DNA of 64,000 bases from Edaphochlamys debaryana (lineage: Eukaryota > Chlorophyta > Chlorophyceae > Chlamydomonadales). A program made the translations under genes and the position numbers. The notes under the pieces were generated by a model. It saw only the letters and a program-made list of their open reading frames with translations. It was not told the origin of the DNA and searched no databases. Below are positions 49,910 to 64,000 of this stretch, piece after piece (position 1 is the first letter of the stretch; the number at the start of each line of letters is the position of its first letter). Location of the stretch: assembly GCA_016858145.1 (NCBI GenBank), contig JAEHOE010000007.1, positions 124,001 to 188,000 of the forward strand, in the 5' to 3' direction.

Positions 49910-52440
49910 CTACCCCTGGCCGCCCTGCTCCCGCGCCAGCGCCTCCAGCGCCGCCGCCGCCCGCGCCTTGCCGCTCAGCCCGCGGCCCACGCCCCGCTTG
50001 TACACCCTCTCCAACGCCGCCGCCAGCGCATCCGCCGGCTCGTGCAGCGCCGCCGGCCGAGCCCGCACCAGCACGCGCACCGCCGCCGACGGCGCCTGCA
50101 GCGCCCACGCCAGCTCCTGCAGCTTGTGCCGCAGAGCCTCGCGCTGGAGCACCAGCAGGCGGGGTGCGGCCAGGGCCGCGGCCCTGGCTGCCTCCAGGGA
50201 GGGGTACTGCAGCTCCTCAGCCACCGCCACCAGGCGCCGCGGGAGGGCCTCCACCGCCATGGTCAGCAACGTCGGCTCCGCCGTCACCAGCCTCCGTGCC
50301 TCCGCCAGGCCGCCGTCCCCCTCCTCTTTCTCATCCTTCCCCGCCCCCGCCTCTACCCCTGCCGCCCCGCCAGCGTCCCCGCCCGGCGCCACTTTCCGCC
50401 GCCCGCGAACGGGAGCGCGTGACCCCTGCTGTGCACCCCGGCCCCGTGCCGCCGGCCCCAGCACCAGGAGGTTGGCCAGCTGCCTCAGCTTCCGGGGCAC
50501 GGCGTCGCTCGACATGGACAGCACCCCCGGCTGCCGCAGGGCCAGCTTGCGCGCCGCGGCGTCGTCCGCCAGCCTGAGCACCTCCTTCAGGCGGCGCAGC
50601 TTGCCCGCGACCAGCGCCGGAGACATGGACAGGAGCGAGGGCTGGTTGCGGCACAGGCGGCTGACGTCGTTGGGCGGCATGGACAGCGCTCGGCCCAGGG
50701 CCGCCAGCCTGAAGGCCAGGGCCTCGGGGGTGCGGAGCAGCAGCGCGGGCTGCTGGATGGCCAGGCGCGCCGCGTGGCCGCTGTCACGCAGGCGCAGCTG
50801 GGACACGAGCCCGGCCAGGGCGGCGGTGCGGTGCTGGGGCGGGAGCAGCAGGAGTTGCGGCGAGCGGGCGACCAGCTTGCGGACGGCGCTGGGGGGGAGG
50901 TCGAGGACGCGGCCCAGGTGGAGGGCGGACTGGCGCACGCCGCCGGGCGGCAGCATGAGCAGCGTGGGGCACAGCATCACCACGCGCCGCGCCACGGGGC
51001 TCTCCTCGGGCGGCTTGCTGCCGGGCCAGGGGACGTCACGGCCGGCTCGGGGCGCGGGCGCCCCTTCCCGCTGACCGCCCTCCGCCCCTGCATACCCTGG
51101 TCCCGACTCGCCGTACCCGTCCTCATCTTCCTCCTCCTCCCCGCCGGCGCCGTTCCCGCTCCAGCCTCGCCCGCTGCCGGCCCCGTGCGCCTGCTCCAAG
51201 CTGGCAAGCACTTCCGCCAGCCGCAGCCAGGCCCGGCGCAGGGCGGCCGCCGGCGCTGCCAGCATTCGCTCTAGGTCGTAGGCTCTGAGGCGGCTGATGC
51301 AGTGGCAGGCCTCTTGGGGCGAGCACTGTAGCAGCCATGCTAACTGGTGGCAGCGGAGGACTAGACGCTCCAGGGGCACCTGCAGGAGCGCCGGCTGCCG
51401 GGCTATGAGCTGGAGCGCAGCTTCTGGAGTCACGAGGGGCAGGATGGGTGTGGAGGCGGTGACGGGGCTGGGGGTGGCGGAGGGGGCGGGAGTGACCGGG
51501 GCGGGGGCAGGGGCGGGGTCGGGGGTCGAGGGGTCGGGGGTGACGACGCGGCGTTGGAAGCTCGGCCGCAGCAGGCGCGGGCTTGCGGGGGACCCCGCCT
51601 CAGCCGCCGGGGTGGCAGCCGGTGAGGAAGCCGGACGCGAGGTGACCACTTGGGCGGTGGCAGAGGGAAAGCTGTTCAACGATACAGCGGCGGGTCCCGC
51701 AGGGCGGGCCGTGGGGGGAGGGCGGGTGCCGGAGGGCACTGGCGGGGCCGACAGGCCGGCTGCCAGCTGCTGGGCCCGCGCCTGCAGTGCCGTGATGGGG
51801 CAGACGAGCAGCCACGGCTGCATCGTGAGCATGCGAACGACCTGCGGGGCCGCACAGGGGGGTGTAAGAGACTTTCACCAGGGTGGAGTGCACCGGAGGC
51901 TGACTAGCCGGAGGGGTCACAGCCTAAGGGAAGGCCCCGCTACCGTGCCCGTGCGGTCCCGCACCTCTGCTTGCGTGAGGCCCAGCTCCTTCTGCATGGC
52001 GCCGCAGCGCTTAGCGACCTCTCGCACGCCGGTGCCGCGAGGCAGACGGTCCGAGCAGCTGTCGAGCGCCTCTGCCAAGCCGTGGGCGGCGGGCATGGGC
52101 AGTCGCAGGGTATCCGCGAGCGCTTCCGCGTCCAAAGGACCTGCACCATAGGCAACATGCACTCCCGTTATAGCGACTCGGCTGCCGCCGCCAGCCCGCA
52201 GCTGCACACACCTGCGAGTGGCTCTCCGACATCGCTGCCGGCCAGACCCCGACGGACAGAGCTTCGAACTTCTGGCTCCGCATAGGCAGAGCAGCTGATG
52301 CGTAACCGCTGGCCGTTCCTCAGAGCTGAGCATGCGCGAGCGCGGAGCGCCGCGACTGGCCAGACCCGGCCGCCAACTCCTCGCGACGCCCAGGCATAAG
52401 CTGGTAAGCCAGAGGCTTTGTCTGGCTGAAGTTGAAGCAT
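49910..52440 (-). CDS. mTERF-like organelle protein, about 778 aa
   Basis: mTERF proteins bind organelle nucleic acids and act in transcription, splicing or ribosome assembly in chloroplasts or mitochondria. Repeated helical units of about 30-36 residues with the hallmark Pro-x-Leu-Leu are plain: RQPALLQVPLERLVLRCHQL, CPTLLMLPPGG, RSPQLLLLPPQHRTAAL, QQPALLLRTPEALAFRLAAL, NQPSLLSMSPALVAGKLRRL, RQPGVLSMSSDAVPRKLRQL, AEPTLLTMAVEALPRRLVAV and APRLLVLQREALRHKLQEL. The N-terminus (MLQLQPDKASGL, then Arg/Ala/Ser-rich) suits a transit peptide. Exons: 52440-52212, 52140-51965, 51841-49910. The long last exon includes a Pro/Ala-rich stretch and two Gly/Glu/Asp-rich inserts. An OPR-type repeat protein is the main alternative, but the P-x-LL spacing favours mTERF. 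Confidence 0.8.
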
Positions 52441-52887: not shown

Positions 52888-55800
52888 CTACTGCTTGCCG
52901 GCGCCGGACAGGTCGATGAACTTCATCGCGTTGCCAATGTCCTTGTCGCCGCGCCCAGAGCAGTTGATCACCACGCGCTGCCCGTTCTGCATGCCGGCGA
53001 TGAGGCGGGGCAGGTGCGCGATGGCGTGCGAGGTCTCCAGGGCGGGAATGATGCCCTCGAGCCTGTGGATGGCACGGGCCACGGGCAAAGGGGAAAACAG
53101 TATGGCTAAGTCAGAGTCTATGGGCCTCAACGGGGCAGATGCCCCCTCCCGAGAGACGAAAGCCAGTGCCGGCCATCAGCACAAGCCCCTTCTTTCCAGG
53201 CTTTCCTGCCATCCCCCACGCCGGCCCCGGTCCGCCCTCAGCGCGTAGTTACGCCCCGCCGCTCCTCACCACGCCGTCCCAACCCCGCCCACCCCTGCCC
53301 ACCCCTTCGTCAGCAGGTAAACCAACCCACATCACAAACAACCCGGCCCAACCCGACCCCGCCCGGCCCGGCCCCCGGCACCCACTGGCTGAGCAGCTGG
53401 AAGGCGTCGAGCGCCTCCTTGTCGGTGACCGAGTGGTACTCCGCGCGGCCAATGTCCATGAGGAACGAGTGCTCCGGGCCGATGCCGGGGTAGTCCAGAC
53501 TGCGGGGCGGGGGGAGGCGGAGGAGGAGCAGGGCAGACCACTCAGACGGCGAAGGCTCTGCGAGATACGCCGCCTACGTTGTGCTGATCAGGGGCAACCG
53601 GAAAGCACTGCTCGCAATGCCAGGGCCACCGGGAGCTTGAGTTGATGAGGTCCCCGACCGCAACGCGCTGGGCGCTGAGGGGGCGCGCAGGGCATGCAGC
53701 GCCAGGGTCCGGCCCCTGTACCCTAGCCCCGTGAGCTCCCCCTTTCCGGCGCCCTCCGCTCACCCCGCGGAGATGGAGTGCGGGTCGATGATCTGGCCAT
53801 CGTCGTCCTGCAGCAGGTAGCTGTAGCTGCCGTGCAGCACGCCGGGGCTGCCCTTGGTGAGGGTGGCCGCGTGCTTGTTGGTGTCGACGCCCTCGCCGCC
53901 CGCCTCCACGCCGACCAGGCGCACCTGGGGTCCCAAGCACAGGGCAGCGGCCGAAAGGACTCTTCAGCGGGCCTGCAGATGCCCCCTTCACGCTTGCCGC
54001 GTGCCGCCCCGGGTCCCACAAGCACCCATACCGGTACTCGGCGCCCATGCCCAACCGCTCCCCACAACCGCCCGTTCTGAGCCCGCCCTGGCGACCCCGG
54101 CCGCCGCCACAAATCCCCTTCTCCCGCCGGCCCTGACCCTCTTACGTCCGTGTCGTTAACGAACTCGTGGAACAGGCCGATGGCGTTGGAGCCGCCGCCC
54201 ACGCAGGCCATGAGCACGTCCGGCTTGCCGCCCCACTTCTCCAGGCACTGCTTGCGCGTCTCCTTGCCGATGATCGACTGGAACTCGCGCACCTGCGCGG
54301 TACAGGTGCAGCCGCACCGGCCACACAATAGGTCAGCCCCGGTACCGTACGAGAGCTGGGGGCAGTGGCCCGCGCTGGCGGCAGCTGTCCCAGGGGAGTA
54401 TGCTGGCCGCTGCATCGCCGCAGGTTGCCGGCCGCGCGCCACCCCAGCCTCCCCCAGGCGGGGTACCCTCGTCCCTTCACTAGGGCCGGAGGTCGGCCAC
54501 AGGACCCCGGCAGCTGAGGCCGCCCTCCGGTAGACTGCTGGCCGCCGCCCCACTCGCGCCAGGGCTCCTTCGTCCTCTGTGCTCGGGGTCCGTGGCGCGC
54601 GGACAGCCGCTGGGCGCCAGTGCTTGCTCGCCGCAATCCTGAGGATCCGCTGCCCTTCCACGACCAGCCCCAACGGCTTGCGCCCGCACGACTTGAGGCT
54701 ACAACCGCCCCTATACATCTTGCGTTGGATCCCAGCCTCGTGCCGTGCCCGCCCGCGCCAGGCGCAACCTGTCTTCCTCCCACCCCAGCCACTCTCCGCC
54801 CAGGTACCCATGCCCGCACCCACCATCATGGGGTAGGGGTGGGGGCCGGCGGCCGAGCCCAGGATGTAGTGGGTGGTCTCCACGTTGGTGACCCAGTCGC
54901 GGATGGCCTCCGAGGTGGCGTCCTTCAGGGTGGCCGTGCCGCTGTGCACCGGGCGCACCTCCGCGCCGCACAGGCGCATGCGGAACACGTTCAGCGCCTG
55001 CGGGAGCGTGGCGAAACACAGGGCCTCAGCGCAAGCCCTTCAGCACACGTGGCAGGCGTCCGGGTACCGTACCAGGTGGTGTGAGCCAGGAGTAATGTGC
55101 TGGGCAGGTGAGGTTTAGGGGGTTGGGCAAGGCAGCCTAGCGGCCCTACCTGGCGCTCCATGTCCTTGGCGCCCATGTACACGATGCACTTGAGGCCCAG
55201 GCGGGCGCACACGGTGGCCTGCGTGGCGATCGGGGATGAGCGCGAGGTGGGTTAGGGCATTGGGTGGGGGAGGGCAGCGACGTGGCACGAACCCTGACCC
55301 AAGACTTCCAAGGGGTCGGCTGTCCCCCGCCATAGCCGACAACACCCCGGCCGCCCCAGCCTGCCACAACACCCGCTTGCCCCCTTCGCCAGGCTGCCCA
55401 CCGTGGCCACGCCGTGCTGGCCGGCACCGGTCTCCGCGATGATGCGCTGCTTGTTGAGCCGCTTGCACAGCAGCGCCTGGCCCAGGGAGTTGTTAATCTT
55501 ATGCGCCCCGGTGTGGTTCAGGTCCTCGCGCTTCAGGTAGATCTCCGCGTGGCCGCCGTCACCGCTGCGAGAGCGCAAAGCAGCGACGCGTCAGGGCTAA
55601 CCGCGCGACCGAGCGCAGAAGTCGTTCCCACCAGTCACCCCAGCCCTGAGCGGGGCTCTTACGTCTTGTAGTACTCCGACAGACGCTCGGCGTAGTAGAG
55701 CGGCGTCTCGCGGCCCACGTAGTCCTTGAGGATGCCGTCCATCGTAGCCTGTGGGGCCCCCCACGAGTCCAATTGTCAACGAGCATCGCCTAATCACTGA

Positions 55801-56155
55801 CCCAAGTCAACCGTGATACGACGGGGACTAATTGCAGCTGTTTGGCGCGGCATCGCCCAGCCACTGCATTTCTGCTCGCCTTGAAGGAGGGGTCCGCCAG
55901 GGCCTCCTTGAAGTCCTTCTCCAGCTGCTCCAGAGCTGGGATCAGCGTCTCAGGCACGTACTTGCCGCCGAAGCGGCCAAAGCGACCATTGGCGTCGGGC
56001 CGCTCATACTCCGTCACCGACTTCTGCGGCGCAGCCACAGCGGCCACACGAACGCTGGTCGAGCTGCGGGTCACGCGGGCCGGGATGCCGCGGCTGCCAC
56101 GGCTCACGGCGCCACGGCCGGCATCCATGCGCGTCTGGCTAGCGGTGAGGTTCAT
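52888..56155 (-). CDS. TSB: Tryptophan synthase beta subunit, plastid, 454 aa
   Basis: Joins indole and serine to make tryptophan with pyridoxal phosphate (Chlamydomonas MAA7 is this gene). Family blocks are plain: [59 protein letters not shown] with the PLP lysine, [11 protein letters not shown] with the catalytic Glu, [12 protein letters not shown] (phosphate loop), [37 protein letters not shown] and SGRGDKDIG. The first 45 residues ([20 protein letters not shown]) are a typical chloroplast transit peptide. Exons: 56155-55880, 55748-55663, 55564-55402, 55218-55150, 54997-54824, 54292-54146, 53924-53764, 53499-53386, 53062-52888. The first intron seems to use a GC donor (AAG|GCGAGC); the in-phase GT 15 bases later would insert five residues (ASRNA) not usual in the family. 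Confidence 0.96.
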
Positions 56156-57010
56156 GGCTACCGGTGTGGACGCTTATGCCTCACTAGAGGCTACCGGGTT
56201 GACGAAAAGGTAAGCGGTCCAGCGCGAGTGCGGGGACATGATGCATCACAGCCCGGAATGAGCCCTCGCCCGGTGACCCACACCACGCTCCCCGGCGCTG
56301 CATAGCATCAGATGTTACATGCTATCCGCTTCTGACCTGTGGCCCCGCCTCGTCTCCCCCCTATTGAGCAATGCCGTGCCATTGTGCCGACGCGTCGCAT
56401 ACCCTTGACCTTTTCGGCAGCCCCGCCCAGCCCCGGCCCCGGCCAGCTACCACGGTCCTCCTCCTCCTCCTCCTTTACTCGCGCGTGCCGCAAGTCCCCG
56501 CACCGCAACGGTGATACCAAACATGTCATGAAAGCTACAATGCCGTCTTTTAAAGGCTATGTGAGGCCATGGCGCATGGCCTGGCCATGTTCTGCCCCAC
56601 AAGCCCAGGTGCCTTCACGCCCGGCGTGTCAGCCCTCAAAGCTTTCGCTTCGTGGACCCTAAAGCCTCCGGACTCTCCGCACCAACGTAACCATTGGACA
56701 TCAGCGGCGGGCCTGGTGTGTCACTACTGTGTCCTCCGTCCGGGAATTTAGCTTGCCGGCGGGGCCACAGGCTGTCCCCAGTTCCAAGCCCCGCGTTGGT
56801 CGCGTCTGGGGGCTGAGGGCCTGCAGCCCCACCCAACGGGCTCAGCTCCTCCAGACCCTGGCTGTACCCTGCCCACAACCATCGTAGCCCGGCCTATGCC
56901 CATCTGCACCCCGCTTTCGTGGCAAGAGGGCAGGAAAGACAGCGGCGCGGATGGCCGTGCTGACCTGCCGCCGGCCCCTGCCCTGCCGGCCTGGCCATGC
57001 TCGCTAGGCG
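56156..57010 (-). other. trpB promoter and 3' region of the SPO16-like candidate
   Basis: No gene is recognised here. If the TGTAA at 56315 is used, the trpB promoter and leader fit in about 150 bases. Confidence 0.5.
56315..56319 (-). terminator. TGTAA poly(A) signal, probably of the gene at 57011-58536
   Basis: TTACA on the + strand in GATGTTACATG, about 690 bases beyond the stop of the upstream - strand gene. Confidence 0.5.
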
Positions 57011-58536
57011 CTACTCGACCATGTCGCCACCGTCCGTTGCCCCTGGTACGGCTTGGAGCGTTGCAGTGAGGGCCGCTTCGTCTAGGACGGCCGCCAGGCG
57101 CTGCGGCAAGCAACACAGCGGGGGATTAGGGTTGTCCCCAAGGGACCGCGCACTAAGGGCCGTCTGTACCCACGCGTTGCTCCGTCTGCCCCTCATCACG
57201 CTATTCACCATTGCGCCCATGAGCCATCGAGACTGGGCTGTGCGTGCTAGGACCTGTATGGCTACATACCTGCGCCTCCAGCTCCTGCGGGTCCAGGCCA
57301 CCCTCCTCCGGCGTTGCCGTCAGCGCCTGGACCGTGCGCACGGCGGCCAGGGCCGCAGCCCCCGGTGCGTACGTTACTGCCGTGATGTCCGGATGCCTGC
57401 AACCCGCAGAGCATAATGGTCTCGTAGCAGCCCACAGCAGGCTGCGGACAACGCCCCTGCAAAGTGCTGCTCGTCTGGGCTCCCGGTCCTCACCGTGCAG
57501 CGACGTCGGCGGTGAGGTTGTAGCCGTAACCAGCAGGCGCCAGCAAGTACACCGCTCGGAAGTTTTGCTGGAGGGAGCTCAAGCTGCGCGGGGTCCCGGG
57601 GGTGGGCGTGATGCAGGGCGGGGGCCAACGGTGGGGGCTTGCCTGAGGGCTGCCCACATTGCAAGGGGACCTCCGCGATCTGGGTCGGCCCGGAACCCCG
57701 CCCCACGTACCGGGAGGCGAGCTGAGCCGCGGCAGCTGCTACGGGAGTCGCCCCCAGGCGTCTCTCGTCCACCAACAGGAATGCGTGCGGCCGGCCCTGA
57801 ATGGTCACGAGCAGGTCCTGCGAACGGAGCACGGGAGGGCCGGGGAGAGGGAAGGGTGGCAGGGGTGCGTCGCCGCCAACCTGCACTTACTCCCGGCGGG
57901 TCTCCGCCAGTGCGGTGCGCCACTTCATGCAAATGCGCTTAGAGCTCGCATTTTCCGGGTCGTGCCTCACCGGCTCGAGAGCGGTGCCCACGCGCAGCTT
58001 GAAACCCAGCTGCGCGAGCTCCTCAGAGTCTGGCGCATCGATGCCGCAGCCCTCTCGCATGATGCAGGCCCCGCCGCGCATCGACGCCTGCTGAGGGTCG
58101 CGAGCCGGACCCGCGGGACGTCGCGAAGTCTTGAGCACTGCCCCAGGCGGTTCTTCGAATGCCGTGCTGCTCAACCAGAGCTTCGCGACTGAGGTCAATG
58201 GATGAATGAAGCTGCACGCTTTGCCCGCGGTTCCTCTGTGTGTGGCACGGCCTGGGCGCTGCCGGCCATCAGCCCCTCGCGTGCCCCTGCCTCTCCCCAC
58301 CCTCGTCCATGCCTGAACTCGCCTTACTCGTCGCACCCACGCGTCCTTGCCACTTCCCGTAGTAAGTTGCTGCAGCGAAGCCACGTCGGACTTCTCGATT
58401 GCACTGCAGTCCGGAGGTTCCAGTGGCCACGGCGGCGACCCGCCGCGGGAAGTTCTTCGTTCCTAGGCCTTGCTGGTGACTACCTGAGAGCCGCCGACAG
58501 GGATGCGACTCCGGTGGCACAGGCGCATGCCGACAT
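57011..58536 (-). CDS. Uncharacterised 219-aa protein, possible SPO16/PTD-like (XPF-fold) meiotic factor
   Basis: No family is recognised with certainty. Seven exons join in phase: 58536-58484, 58403-58328, 58087-57971, 57817-57711, 57583-57494, 57396-57270, 57100-57011. The protein opens MSACACATGVASLSAALS and ends DGGDMVE. The core alternates strand and helix as in the inactive XPF/ERCC1 central fold: LLVTIQGRPHAFLLVDE, then AAAAAQLASRLSSLQQNF, then RAVYLLAPAGYGYNLTADVA, then HPDITAVTYAPGAAALAAVR and a helical tail. SPO16 (C1orf146) has the same order of a hydrophobic strand, a helix, an F/YLLxAP strand, then a helix. The assignment rests on this pattern and on the head-to-head position with HEI10, so it is a hypothesis. 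The gene model itself is better supported than the name. Confidence 0.6.
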
Positions 58537-58844
58537 TGCCAGCCGGTCGGGGAGCCTTCCATCCGCTTTGCACAGTAGTGAATGAAGTGCGTGAGTGTTT
58601 GGTGTTGAATTGGGCAACCCCTGTGGCCTGGGAGCGAGCCCCGTGAAGGTTTTGCGGGCCAGCTGTCGATGCGACTTTTGGGGCCGGCGGGTCCCTGCCG
58701 TTGCCCGCAGAGCTCTGCTCCACAACCCACATAGCCCTGGGGACTCATACGCGTACATCACACCGCATAGTTAATAGGCACCTCCCTCCAGCCGTTGCGC
58801 CAGCCATCCTCCACTCCGCGACCGCGCATGTGCGGGCCGCCAGC
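58537..58844. promoter_or_regulatory. Shared divergent promoter of HEI10 (+) and the SPO16-like candidate (-)
   Basis: Start codons are 308 bases apart. The palindrome ACGCGT, which is the yeast MCB cell-cycle box, lies at 58749-58754 in CATACGCGTACA. In GC-rich DNA this can be chance. No TATA box was found on either strand. Confidence 0.5.
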
Positions 58845-61102
58845 ATGCTGAGGTGCAACGCCTGCTGGTCGGACGTCGAGGGCAAATCGGTCGTCACGGC
58901 CTGCCAGCACCTCTTCTGTGAGAGGGAGCGACGAGGAGGCTGGTCTCGGTCCACCATGCTTTGCACTCGGTCGGCTGCTCGCGTTGGTCTCGTGGGGCCC
59001 AAGCTGACAGCTGGCAACCCTCATGCTGGTTGCAGGCCTCAAGTGCGCGCAGCAGATTGTCGAGAGCGACTCCGCGTGCCCCGTGTGCGAGAGCGTCATC
59101 ACCAAGAGGCGAGCAGAGCCTGGGAGGCTGATGGGTACACCGAAGCCGTCAGAGTGTACACAGCAGCTCCTGTGATGTGCTCTCGGGCTGAGGGGCTCAG
59201 CTCGGCGCCATGGGGGCTTGCATGCCTTGGGCTGACTTCTGTCTTTCCGGGCTGTTTGATGCGCAGCACGGTAAAGGTCATCCAGACATCTCAAGAAGCC
59301 GCAGCTTGCCAGGTGGGGCATCGGGAATGACAGCAGTGTGGCCCACATGTGGGCCCACATCTTCGACATCCCTTGCGGCACCCCCCTTCCGACCCCTCAC
59401 CCCCCTCTTCTGTTGCCCGCAAACTGCAGCTGCTTCTGTGCGGCCAACCCCCAGAGACCGCTCTGGGGTCAGCGCTTGCGTCCGTGCAGTTCTATGTTGC
59501 GCAGCAGCAGCTCCAGGTACGCAAGCGCTTGCGTCGGTAGGGGTTGGCCGGAAACGTGGAAAGCTTGGCAACCGATGCCGGGACCAGGAAGCCCCTTGAA
59601 GGGGTCTTTTAGGGGGATGCGGCACATGGGTTTGAAGTGAGGGGTGGTTAGGCCACCATAGGTGGAATGCATGGGCCTGTACAAGGTTCAGGCAGCGGAC
59701 AGGGCTGTGGTTGGGACGGGTGGGAACGAGTGCTCGGCCGTGGCAGCAATGGCTTGTTGCTCAGTGCTGACCTTGCGCTGTTGCCTCTGTGCATGTGCAC
59801 ATCACAGGCGGACCTTCGTGAGTCTCAGCTCACAAAGAAGATAAACAAGGTGCAGGAGGCATGCCGGAAGAAGCTGGTGAGCGCGTGCGGCCCGGAACGG
59901 CGTGGAGTAGGGCTAGGGCACACGGTTTATCTTGCTGTGCCCCTCACCGTGCCCCGCAGGAGGAGGTGCACAATGGCTACGTGCAGGTAAAGGACGAAGG
60001 GAAGAAGAGCACATCCGTACTTGCAGGGTAGTATTTACGCTTGAGAATGCCCTGGGTACATCCGCAACGGGGCCAGGGGGAAGGCTGTTTCTAACCCATG
60101 GACCCACTCAATCCGTGGCCCGCCCGCAGGCCAAGCGCAAGTATGAGGAGGCCATGCGCACCAACCAGCAGATGCAACAGGACCTGCAGGAGATTCAGGC
60201 CAAGTTCACGACAAAGACCATGTAGGTGCTGCAGGGGAGGGGGGGAGCAAACGCGGGCATGCAGACGCTGTCATCGGAGCAAAGGCTGTGATGCATGCAT
60301 GTGGAGCACGGCCAGGAAGCGGCATGGCCGGACTCGTTTAGACCTCCAATGCGCTCGGAGCTGACTAGGGTTACTTCCTGCGGACGCAGGCAATGCCGGA
60401 AGCTGCAAGAGGTGATCAAGAAGATGCAGCAGGACACCGAGAATCTCCGGCAGTCCAGCGGCAAAATCGGCGTCCTCAACGGCCCTAGCGGCAGCGGGCG
60501 CAGCTCTCCGACCATGCAGCCCGGCCATCTGGTGAGGACGGGGGCGTAGACGGAGCTCTTATGGTCAAATGCCGCCCCTTCATGCTGACGCGCATATTCC
60601 AACGCAGGTCACCACCGTGCAGCGGACGCAAGTGTTTGCGAACATGCAAAGCCCGCCCACAAACAGCTTCGGGAACACCGTCCCGGCCCTGATGCCCACA
60701 AGCGGTGGCCGGGTGCAGGGCATCACCGGCGGGTACCGGCCACATAGGCAGAACGGAGGAAGCGCCGGGTAAGCGACGGCATTAAGGTGGTTACAGTGTA
60801 CCGCATGCTTGCTTGAGCTGCAGACCAGACGCTACTGGACGTCCATTGAGCCGGCAATTCTGCCTTACTTGCCCGCCTACAGGTTCCTGGGGGGCTCTTT
60901 AGACCCCAACAGCCCGGGCGGCCTTCTGCCGATGAACCAGGGCCTGCGGCGTAGCGGCGGTAACACCTTCGGCGGCGGCGGCGGGGGCCAGGCCGGCGGA
61001 CAGGACAACAACGCCCTGCGAAAGATGCTGGGGATGCCTCCCACGCAGCACGCGATGGGGGGTGGGCGCAACGGCCTCCGAGACGACCTCTTCTCCATGT
61101 GA
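58845..61102 (+). CDS. HEI10: HEI10 / CCNB1IP1-type RING E3 ligase of meiotic crossover formation, 329 aa
   Basis: HEI10 is a ZMM-class protein that forms foci on the synaptonemal complex and marks crossover sites in plants and animals. The RING is at the extreme N-terminus as in the family: MLRCNACWSDVEGKSVVTAC, then CQHLFCLKC, then CPVC (Cys 4, 7, 20, 25, 28, 39, 42 and His 22). Next come VQFYVAQQQLQ, matching the plant FYIAQ block, a coiled coil of about 90 residues (LTKKINKVQEACRKK to MQQDTENLR), and a Ser/Gly/Asn-rich tail (PGGLLPMNQG) ending DLFSM. Exons: 58845-58917, 59036-59108, 59267-59312, 59430-59516, 59808-59876, 59960-59986, 60130-60221, 60390-60531, 60608-60768, 60883-61102. The second intron requires a GC donor (AGAG|GCGAGC); exon 6 is a 27-base micro-exon. 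Confidence 0.92.
59109..59266 (+). other. Intron with GC donor in HEI10
   Basis: Exon 2 must end VITK and exon 3 begin STVKVIQ (AG|C). The only nearby GT (GATGG|GTACAC) leads to a stop after two codons. GCGAGC after AGAG is a normal donor apart from the second base. Confidence 0.75.
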
Positions 61103-61846: not shown

Positions 61847-64000
61847 TCAAGAGATCTGCGGCAGCGTGACCGGCGCCACGGCTCCCTCTCCAGCGGGCAT
61901 CCCGGCAGGGGGCAGGGGCGGTCCGGGCGGCTCAGCCTGCACGCGAGAGGGCGGAACGGGCTGTCGTCAGCTCGCCGAACCACCTGCTAAGTAGTCTTGA
62001 CAGAGCAGCTGAGCATGGGCACTGCCTGGGAGCTGACCAGTTTGCCCCTTCCCAGCCTCACCGGCGAGCCCCGGGCTTTGGGCGCGTTGAGGTTAGGGAG
62101 ACTGTTCTGCGTGCCAGGTATCCGGGCCGTCCCCGGGTTGCTTGGCCGCCAGCCGCCAGGCGGCAGGTGCGGTCCGACATGCTGTGGCGGCAGCGCCTCA
62201 GCGGCAGGGCCGCTCTGGTCCTTGTACCTACGAGGGACAGGCCGAGGCAACGAGCGCACACAAGTGGATGCAGTGCTCACGCAGGTGCTGACCTTGTCAG
62301 CCGACCCACATCAGGACGCCCTCGCCTCCCCATCAACCACCCACACCCGCCGCCCACAGCCCGTCCTGACTCGATGACCCAACCTCCCAGAGGCTCCGCC
62401 AGGCACGCGCCGCTCACCAGTTCTGCACGGCCCGCACGTTTGGGTCCATGTTGAACTGCGCCACCCGGGACGACGAGGCCTGCGGGCTGAGCTCTCCGCC
62501 CGCGGGGCGGCCGCTGCGCACGCCGCGCGCCGAGTCCGCCGCGGGCGCGCCGCGCATGGGCAGCAGGTTGGTGGGGATGAAGGGGCCGGGCTCGTTGTCC
62601 AGCTGGTTCAGCGGCCGGTCGCAGGCCATGCAGCGGTAGCCCGTGATGGGCCGCGCCGCCAGCATGGCGTGGTCGCCCGGCGCCATCGAGTGCTTGCCGG
62701 TGCCGCCGCCTCCAAACGCGTCGGCGTTCACCAGCTTGTCCTGCGGGGATGCACCACCCATCGAGCAAGATAAGCACCACAGGCCCTTCATCCTACCCAC
62801 GCCCGCTTGGCCTAGCGCTACACGTGCGGCACATGCAGTACACCGGTAGAATAAAAGCGTTGCCTTGCCGGCGGGCACCGTACCTTCATGAGGCGCACGT
62901 CCGTGCCCAGGCGCTTGACCTGGCGCTCCAGCTCCTTGATGCCGTAGTCCACCAGGCCGCCGGGGTTGCCCGCGCCGCCCGCGCCGATGCGGCCCATGGC
63001 GGGAGACTTCATGGTCGCCTCCAGGAAGGCTACCTTCTGGGCCTGCAAGGACAGGGTTTAGCAGCCAGGGAGTTGTCTGCTTCAGTGGGGTTCAGGTGTT
63101 GCCTGGGGCATTGTGTGAAGGGCTAAAGTGAGGAAGAGGAAAGGAGCAGCGGCTCACCATCTGCTGCAGGGCGGTGGGGTCGAAGGCGTCCATCTTGTGG
63201 CGATACTCGCCGCTGCCCAGCAGCTTGACCAGCCGCTCGTAGCCGCCGCGGGGCGAGCGGTTCTCCTTGCCGCCAGCGCCTGAGGGCCAGGCCGCACTTG
63301 GCGCCAGGTCAGCTCCGTGCATGACACGGCACGGCCCTTGCAGCTCCCCCAACACCTATAGCCCTTCCCGCCCGGCACCCTCCCTGCCATAAGCTTGCCC
63401 CCACCCCAGGCCCCCAGCCCCACCCCCCACACCCCAGCCCTCAGCTCGCTCACCGCCCGCGTCGCTGTACCTCGCCTCCACGCCGCCCGCCGAGGCCGGC
63501 CCGCCGGGGTTGCTGGCACGCAGGGGCCCATCCATGCCCACGGCCAGCACGTTGGCCGCGTGGGCCACGGCGTCCAGGCCCTCGCGCAGCTGCCCCACCT
63601 CCCGGCTCAGCGCCGACACCATCCGCCCCAGCGAGCCATCCGCGCCGCCGTCGCGCGACGGAGGCACGCTGACGCCCGTCACCGCTCCTCCAGGCCCCGC
63701 CATGGCGCCGGCCGCGCCCGCTGCGGCCAGAGCCTCGGCGGGCAGGGCCGCCATGTCGGCCCGGATCTTGGCCAGCTCCGTGAACACGTCGCCCATGCGT
63801 TGGTCCAGGGACGCGATCTCGTCGGCGTTGGCGGCGCGGCCCGACAGCTGCGACACCAGCGCCGTCAGCTCGGCGGCGTTGGCCTTGTCGTCGACGGCGG
63901 CGCGCAGCAGGCCGAGCTCCTCGCTGGACGCCTTGGCCCCCACCTGATCCTGCAGCGCGCCCAGCTCGGCCTTGCCGGCCTTGTCCGCGACCATGCCCTG
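61847..64000 (-). CDS. DUF4795 (QRICH2-type) protein, C-terminal part, cut by the window edge
   Basis: DUF4795 proteins such as QRICH2 are linked to cilia and sperm tails; the exact role here is unknown. The visible part starts inside a helical region (KASSEELGLLRAAVDDKANA, VFTELAKIRADMAALPAE), passes through KENRSPRGGYERLVKLLGSG, then ELERQVKRLGTDVRLMK and the signature GYRCMACDRPLNQLDNE (Cys-x-x-Cys-Asp-Arg-Pro), and then a Pro-rich tail. Exons: up to 63454, 63279-63158, 63042-62884, 62740-62418, 62227-62062, 61936-61847. The last join (ending VTLPQIS) is likely but optional; without it the frame ends at 61987 (CSVKTT). The window end reads CAGGGCATGGTC on this strand, so the exon may start there or continue. 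Confidence 0.75.

Follow-up and report, generated by a model that had tools for sequence, protein, structure and literature searches.

Gene order and gene models

Within the window, i.e., the whole 64,000-nucleotide stretch of Edaphochlamys debaryana DNA analysed here, two genes lie divergently on opposite strands: HEI10 (+) and HYH03_002714 (-). This divergent pair is real, and its minus-strand member probably encodes a chlorophyte PTD/SPO16, a small nuclease-inactive protein with an ERCC1-like domain that would partner SHOC1/ZIP2. That reading is favoured by a PTD-specific sequence match and by the position of the gene beside HEI10. Coordinates are collected in Table 1.

Table 1. Features of the divergent locus, in window coordinates
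Feature	Position	Strand	Details and basis
HYH03_002714, candidate PTD/SPO16-like gene	57011..58081	-	174 aa, five exons; product identical to annotation
HYH03_002714 exons	58081-57971, 57817-57711, 57583-57494, 57396-57270, 57100-57011	-	
Part of HYH03_002714 coding residues 3-87 (introns included), matching PTD 27-110 pseudo-nuclease domain	57541..58075	-	hhalign
Inter-gene region between start codons, 763 bases	58082..58844	no strand	coordinates
HEI10 gene, 329 aa, ten exons	58845..61102	+	Pfam RING, BLASTP, exon model
HEI10 exons, part 1	58845-58917, 59036-59108, 59267-59312, 59430-59516, 59808-59876	+	own model
HEI10 exons, part 2	59960-59986, 60130-60221, 60390-60531, 60608-60768, 60883-61102	+	own model

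Splicing of HYH03_002714 through four introns, all GT-AG, reproduces the annotated hypothetical protein exactly. The HEI10 frame runs on the plus strand from the ATG at 58845 to the stop codon at 61102, and its nine introns have GT-AG borders in eight cases and GC-AG borders in one (59109-59266, +) in our exon model. Searches of the Edaphochlamys debaryana assembly (141.9 Mb, 502 contigs) at E 0.001 returned five matches for HYH03_002714 and eight for HEI10, every one at the gene's own locus.

The recognition of HEI10 in the original prediction is borne out. Its N-terminal RING domain exceeds the Pfam cut-off, and BLASTP aligns the protein with Arabidopsis HEI10 at 134 bits and E 1e-41, with 28% identity across 335 columns that take in the RCNACW start. 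We identify the plus-strand gene as HEI10 from the RING and from similarity along the coiled-coil region, both of which are common to the algal and Arabidopsis proteins; the algal protein differs in its glycine-rich C-terminal part. It would act in class I crossovers.

The neighbour had been predicted to encode 219 residues and to lie 308 bases from HEI10, and neither value was reproduced. The annotated start (ATG 58081) leaves 763 bases between start codons and yields the 174-residue product; a 308-base gap requires an ATG at 58536 and hence additional exons. Exon combinations enumerated from that ATG encode 220-299 residues, none of them 219, and the 219-residue model was not adopted. GC content at third codon positions (GC3) is 0.70-0.84 in each of the five annotated exons (0.79 combined), 0.64 in frame upstream of 58081, and 0.71 and 0.64 in two candidate upstream exons. 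The value of 0.71 falls inside the annotated range, so GC3 does not rule out the first candidate exon, and the gene may have an extra 5' exon at 58536-58484. The PTD-type GxCxM motif occupies residues 4-8 of the 174-residue protein. We take the gap as 763 bases. The interval is a possible shared promoter; divergent order on its own is weak evidence for co-regulation of the two genes.

Sequence match to PTD

The PTD profile was built from 120 of the 313 PTDs found. With hhalign, HYH03_002714 residues 3-87 align with PTD 27-110 (score 31.5, E 4e-4). This score was reached by none of 1500 shuffles of the protein (best single shuffle 30.2) and by none of the 368 stop-to-stop open reading frames of at least 100 residues in the window, the best of which (21.7) contains the first exon of HYH03_002714 itself. 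Block shuffles likewise did not reach the score of the real protein (0/360), and the reversed sequence scored 13.0. A profile of 20 PTDs gave 29.1 (probability 22%), and a reduced profile that leaves out Arabidopsis and its nearest relatives (13 rows in all) gave 24.9 (probability 7%), a value that 0/600 shuffles reached. The match is collinear from the N-terminal motif onward and covers the N-terminal half of the protein. The GxCxM, FxLxxxxxPD, GxxxAF, and RxxxLxxxFxxxY positions of land-plant PTD (Arabidopsis AT1G12790) recur in matching order. BLASTP against Arabidopsis PTD gives 25% over 92 residues (E 4e-4, single comparison), and when four local schemes were applied in a rerun, 0/2000 shuffles in each reached the Arabidopsis PTD score. 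HYH03_002714 differs from Arabidopsis PTD in being shorter (174 versus 250 residues), in a 6-residue insertion before the core helix, and in lacking a complete C-terminal HhH domain.

Several results weigh against a PTD/SPO16 identity. The hhalign probability for the 120-PTD match is only 35%, and HMMER gives 2.1 bits against PTD, with 3/5000 shuffles above it. Among eleven PTDs tried, Arabidopsis PTD was the most favourable (reached by 1/1000 shuffles with BLOSUM62); the scores of the ten others were reached by 21-145 of 1000 shuffles with BLOSUM62, 29-208 with BLOSUM45, and 1-61 with PAM250. End-to-end alignment to Arabidopsis PTD was reached by 240, 5, 28, and 8 of 2000 shuffles, which is weak in two of the four schemes. 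Protein database searches returned the query itself only, both for the full-length protein at E 1 (scoring confined to 7998 candidates) and for residues 115-161 at E 10 (15 candidates), and no algal homologue was found in them. Arabidopsis PTD as a genome query gave no matches and missed HYH03_002714, which is uninformative. Comparison of the structure models yielded no single fold match that stands out, and no HhH domain was found in the protein, in its last exon, or in four frames downstream.

Profile comparisons with PTD and C1orf146 had been proposed as checks on the predicted SPO16/PTD identity, and they divided. The PTD profile matched the pseudo-nuclease domain (0/1500 shuffles, and 0/600 without the 13 rows), whereas Pfam SCRE, which represents C1orf146, gave no match at E 10 and the HMMER signal was weak. 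HYH03_002714 resembles mammalian SPO16/C1orf146 in its comparable length (180 residues in SPO16), in the lack of a Pfam HhH, and in a weak collinear BLASTP alignment (150 residues, E 0.058), but many shuffles score as well against human SPO16, i.e., 840, 39, 44, and 368 of 2000 in the local schemes and 520, 231, 23, and 270 of 2000 end to end. As yardsticks, the score of SPO16 against Arabidopsis PTD was reached by 70 and 85 of 500 shuffles, although the two are listed as orthologues, and that of FAAP24 against Arabidopsis PTD by 0/500.

Predicted fold and C-terminus

The original prediction envisaged an XPF-like fold. In a PTD-guided model, strands and helices follow one another as in the XPF/ERCC1 core and 51 residues are at pLDDT 70-90, but fold matches are not decisive; a model made without the PTD alignment has 0 residues in that range, and the models are of low confidence overall. 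The modelling is consistent with an ERCC1-like fold but does not decide for it. ERKxxxD is the XPF-type catalytic motif; no ERK occurs anywhere in the 174 residues, so the motif is absent. The C-terminus of Arabidopsis PTD carries Pfam HHH_5 and HHH_2, and the last exon of HYH03_002714 ends, in our own reading, after an apparent first HhH helix. Human SPO16 is likewise without HhH in Pfam, so the missing domain does not rule out membership of the wider PTD/SPO16 family.

Alternative identities

HYH03_002714 could be an unrelated or lineage-specific protein whose PTD match arose by chance, aided by alanine-rich composition. The protein matches no Pfam family, SCRE included, has no relative in the two protein searches, yields low-confidence models, and has one shuffle that scores up to 30.2, all of which would suit such an origin. 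Set against this are the shuffle counts (0/1500, 0/360, and 0/600) and the collinearity with PTD from the N-terminal motif, and we consider chance similarity unlikely.

FAAP24 is the main rival, and one that we judge distinctly unlikely. If HYH03_002714 were this ERCC1-like partner of FANCM, it would serve crosslink repair rather than crossovers, and its adjacency to HEI10 would be fortuitous. The comparison rests on one human sequence, to which residues 106-165, in the C-terminal half of HYH03_002714, align from the final strand of the core to the beginning of the HhH domain. With BLOSUM62 the score was reached by 0/1000 shuffles (6/2000 in the rerun), but other schemes gave 37, 31, and 313 of 2000 and PAM250 106/1000; end to end, 1697, 163, 954, and 373 of 2000 shuffles reached it. 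Human FAAP24 scores 32.3 against the PTD profile via its HhH domain only, and its residues 1-140 score 18.6 over 8 columns. Its core does not match the PTD profile and is without the PTD-type N-terminal motif, whereas the N-terminal half of HYH03_002714 matches PTD; FAAP24 also has a complete HhH domain, unlike the algal protein. Other controls score low as well, including human SPO16 (12.1) and the central pieces of the alga's own ERCC1 (13.3, or 20.6 with HhH), so a match to the pseudo-nuclease domain of PTD is not seen with these ERCC1-like proteins. Among PDB sequences, the PTD profile matched XPF/ERCC1/FANCM/FAAP24 at E 0.18-1.5 through the HhH part only. According to PMC10085685, FAAP24 has yet to be identified in Arabidopsis, which weighs against this rival.

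A duplicate or working copy of ERCC1, already disfavoured, is scarcely credible: the only two Pfam Rad10 matches above the curated cut-off in the genome both lie on contig C11, HYH03_002714 has no Rad10 profile match, and the C11 ERCC1 pieces are matched equally well by 670-1393 of 2000 shuffles of HYH03_002714. By eye, exons at L005 and L006 (G000:C11:490649-494160; Pfam Rad10) read as true ERCC1 of the alga, and those at L004 (G000:C112; Pfam ERCC4) as XPF.

Other searches and features of the window

Genome queries with part of Arabidopsis SHOC1, Pfam SCRE, and Pfam DUF5587 gave no matches, which proves nothing; part of MSH4 matched seven MutS-type pieces, with the paralogue not distinguished. 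No Zip2:Spo16 chain occurs among the 16 matches listed for the PTD profile in PDB sequences. Several matches were taken as chance, i.e., Pfam EthR_C (E 0.42-2.5, one helix of HYH03_002714 only), OutC (E 0.017, PDB sequence search with HYH03_002714), and protein A repeats (up to 5.9e-13, PTD profile against PDB sequences through a short helix).

Elsewhere on the minus strand, frames at 53723-56173 were read by eye as plastid tryptophan synthase beta, and two of them match Pfam PALP, though their 20.3 and 31.7 bits fall short of the curated threshold (35). A multi-exon gene at 62414-64000 crosses the window end and has a YRCMACDRPL stretch and no Pfam match. A 654-residue open frame at 49910-51874 contains repeated RQPALL / RSPQLL-type units that recall mTERF-like repeats; it has no Pfam match at E 0.001.

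Proposed role and implications

In a review (PMC10903461), Zip2-Spo16 is an XPF-ERCC1-like heterodimer that is nuclease-inactive and binds structured DNA; Spo16, SPO16, and PTD are listed as orthologues, and HEI10 coarsening is described. The two genes, their divergent order, the HEI10 assignment, and a PTD-specific match are observed here, and we infer an ERCC1-like fold, a SHOC1 partner, a function in crossover formation, and any co-regulation through the 763 bases. The product of HYH03_002714 would pair with an XPF-like SHOC1/ZIP2; as a heterodimer, the two would bind branched recombination intermediates and contribute to their commitment to class I crossovers. HEI10 would select crossover sites in the same pathway. 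There is an outside chance that the locus is a linked ZMM module, in which HEI10 and an HhH-less PTD/SPO16 share one divergent region for zygote meiosis and are kept together in volvocine algae by dosage matching. The part of the literature covered contained no mention of HEI10 and PTD as a gene pair in an alga.

A survey of plant meiotic proteins (PMC9957857) records that PTD is absent in most chlorophytes analysed and leaves undecided whether this reflects loss or divergence. In Edaphochlamys debaryana, a candidate with a PTD-specific match next to HEI10 speaks for divergence rather than loss. HYH03_002714 can serve as a seed for PTD searches in other volvocine algae, and the SHOC1-PTD complex becomes testable in Chlamydomonas relatives.
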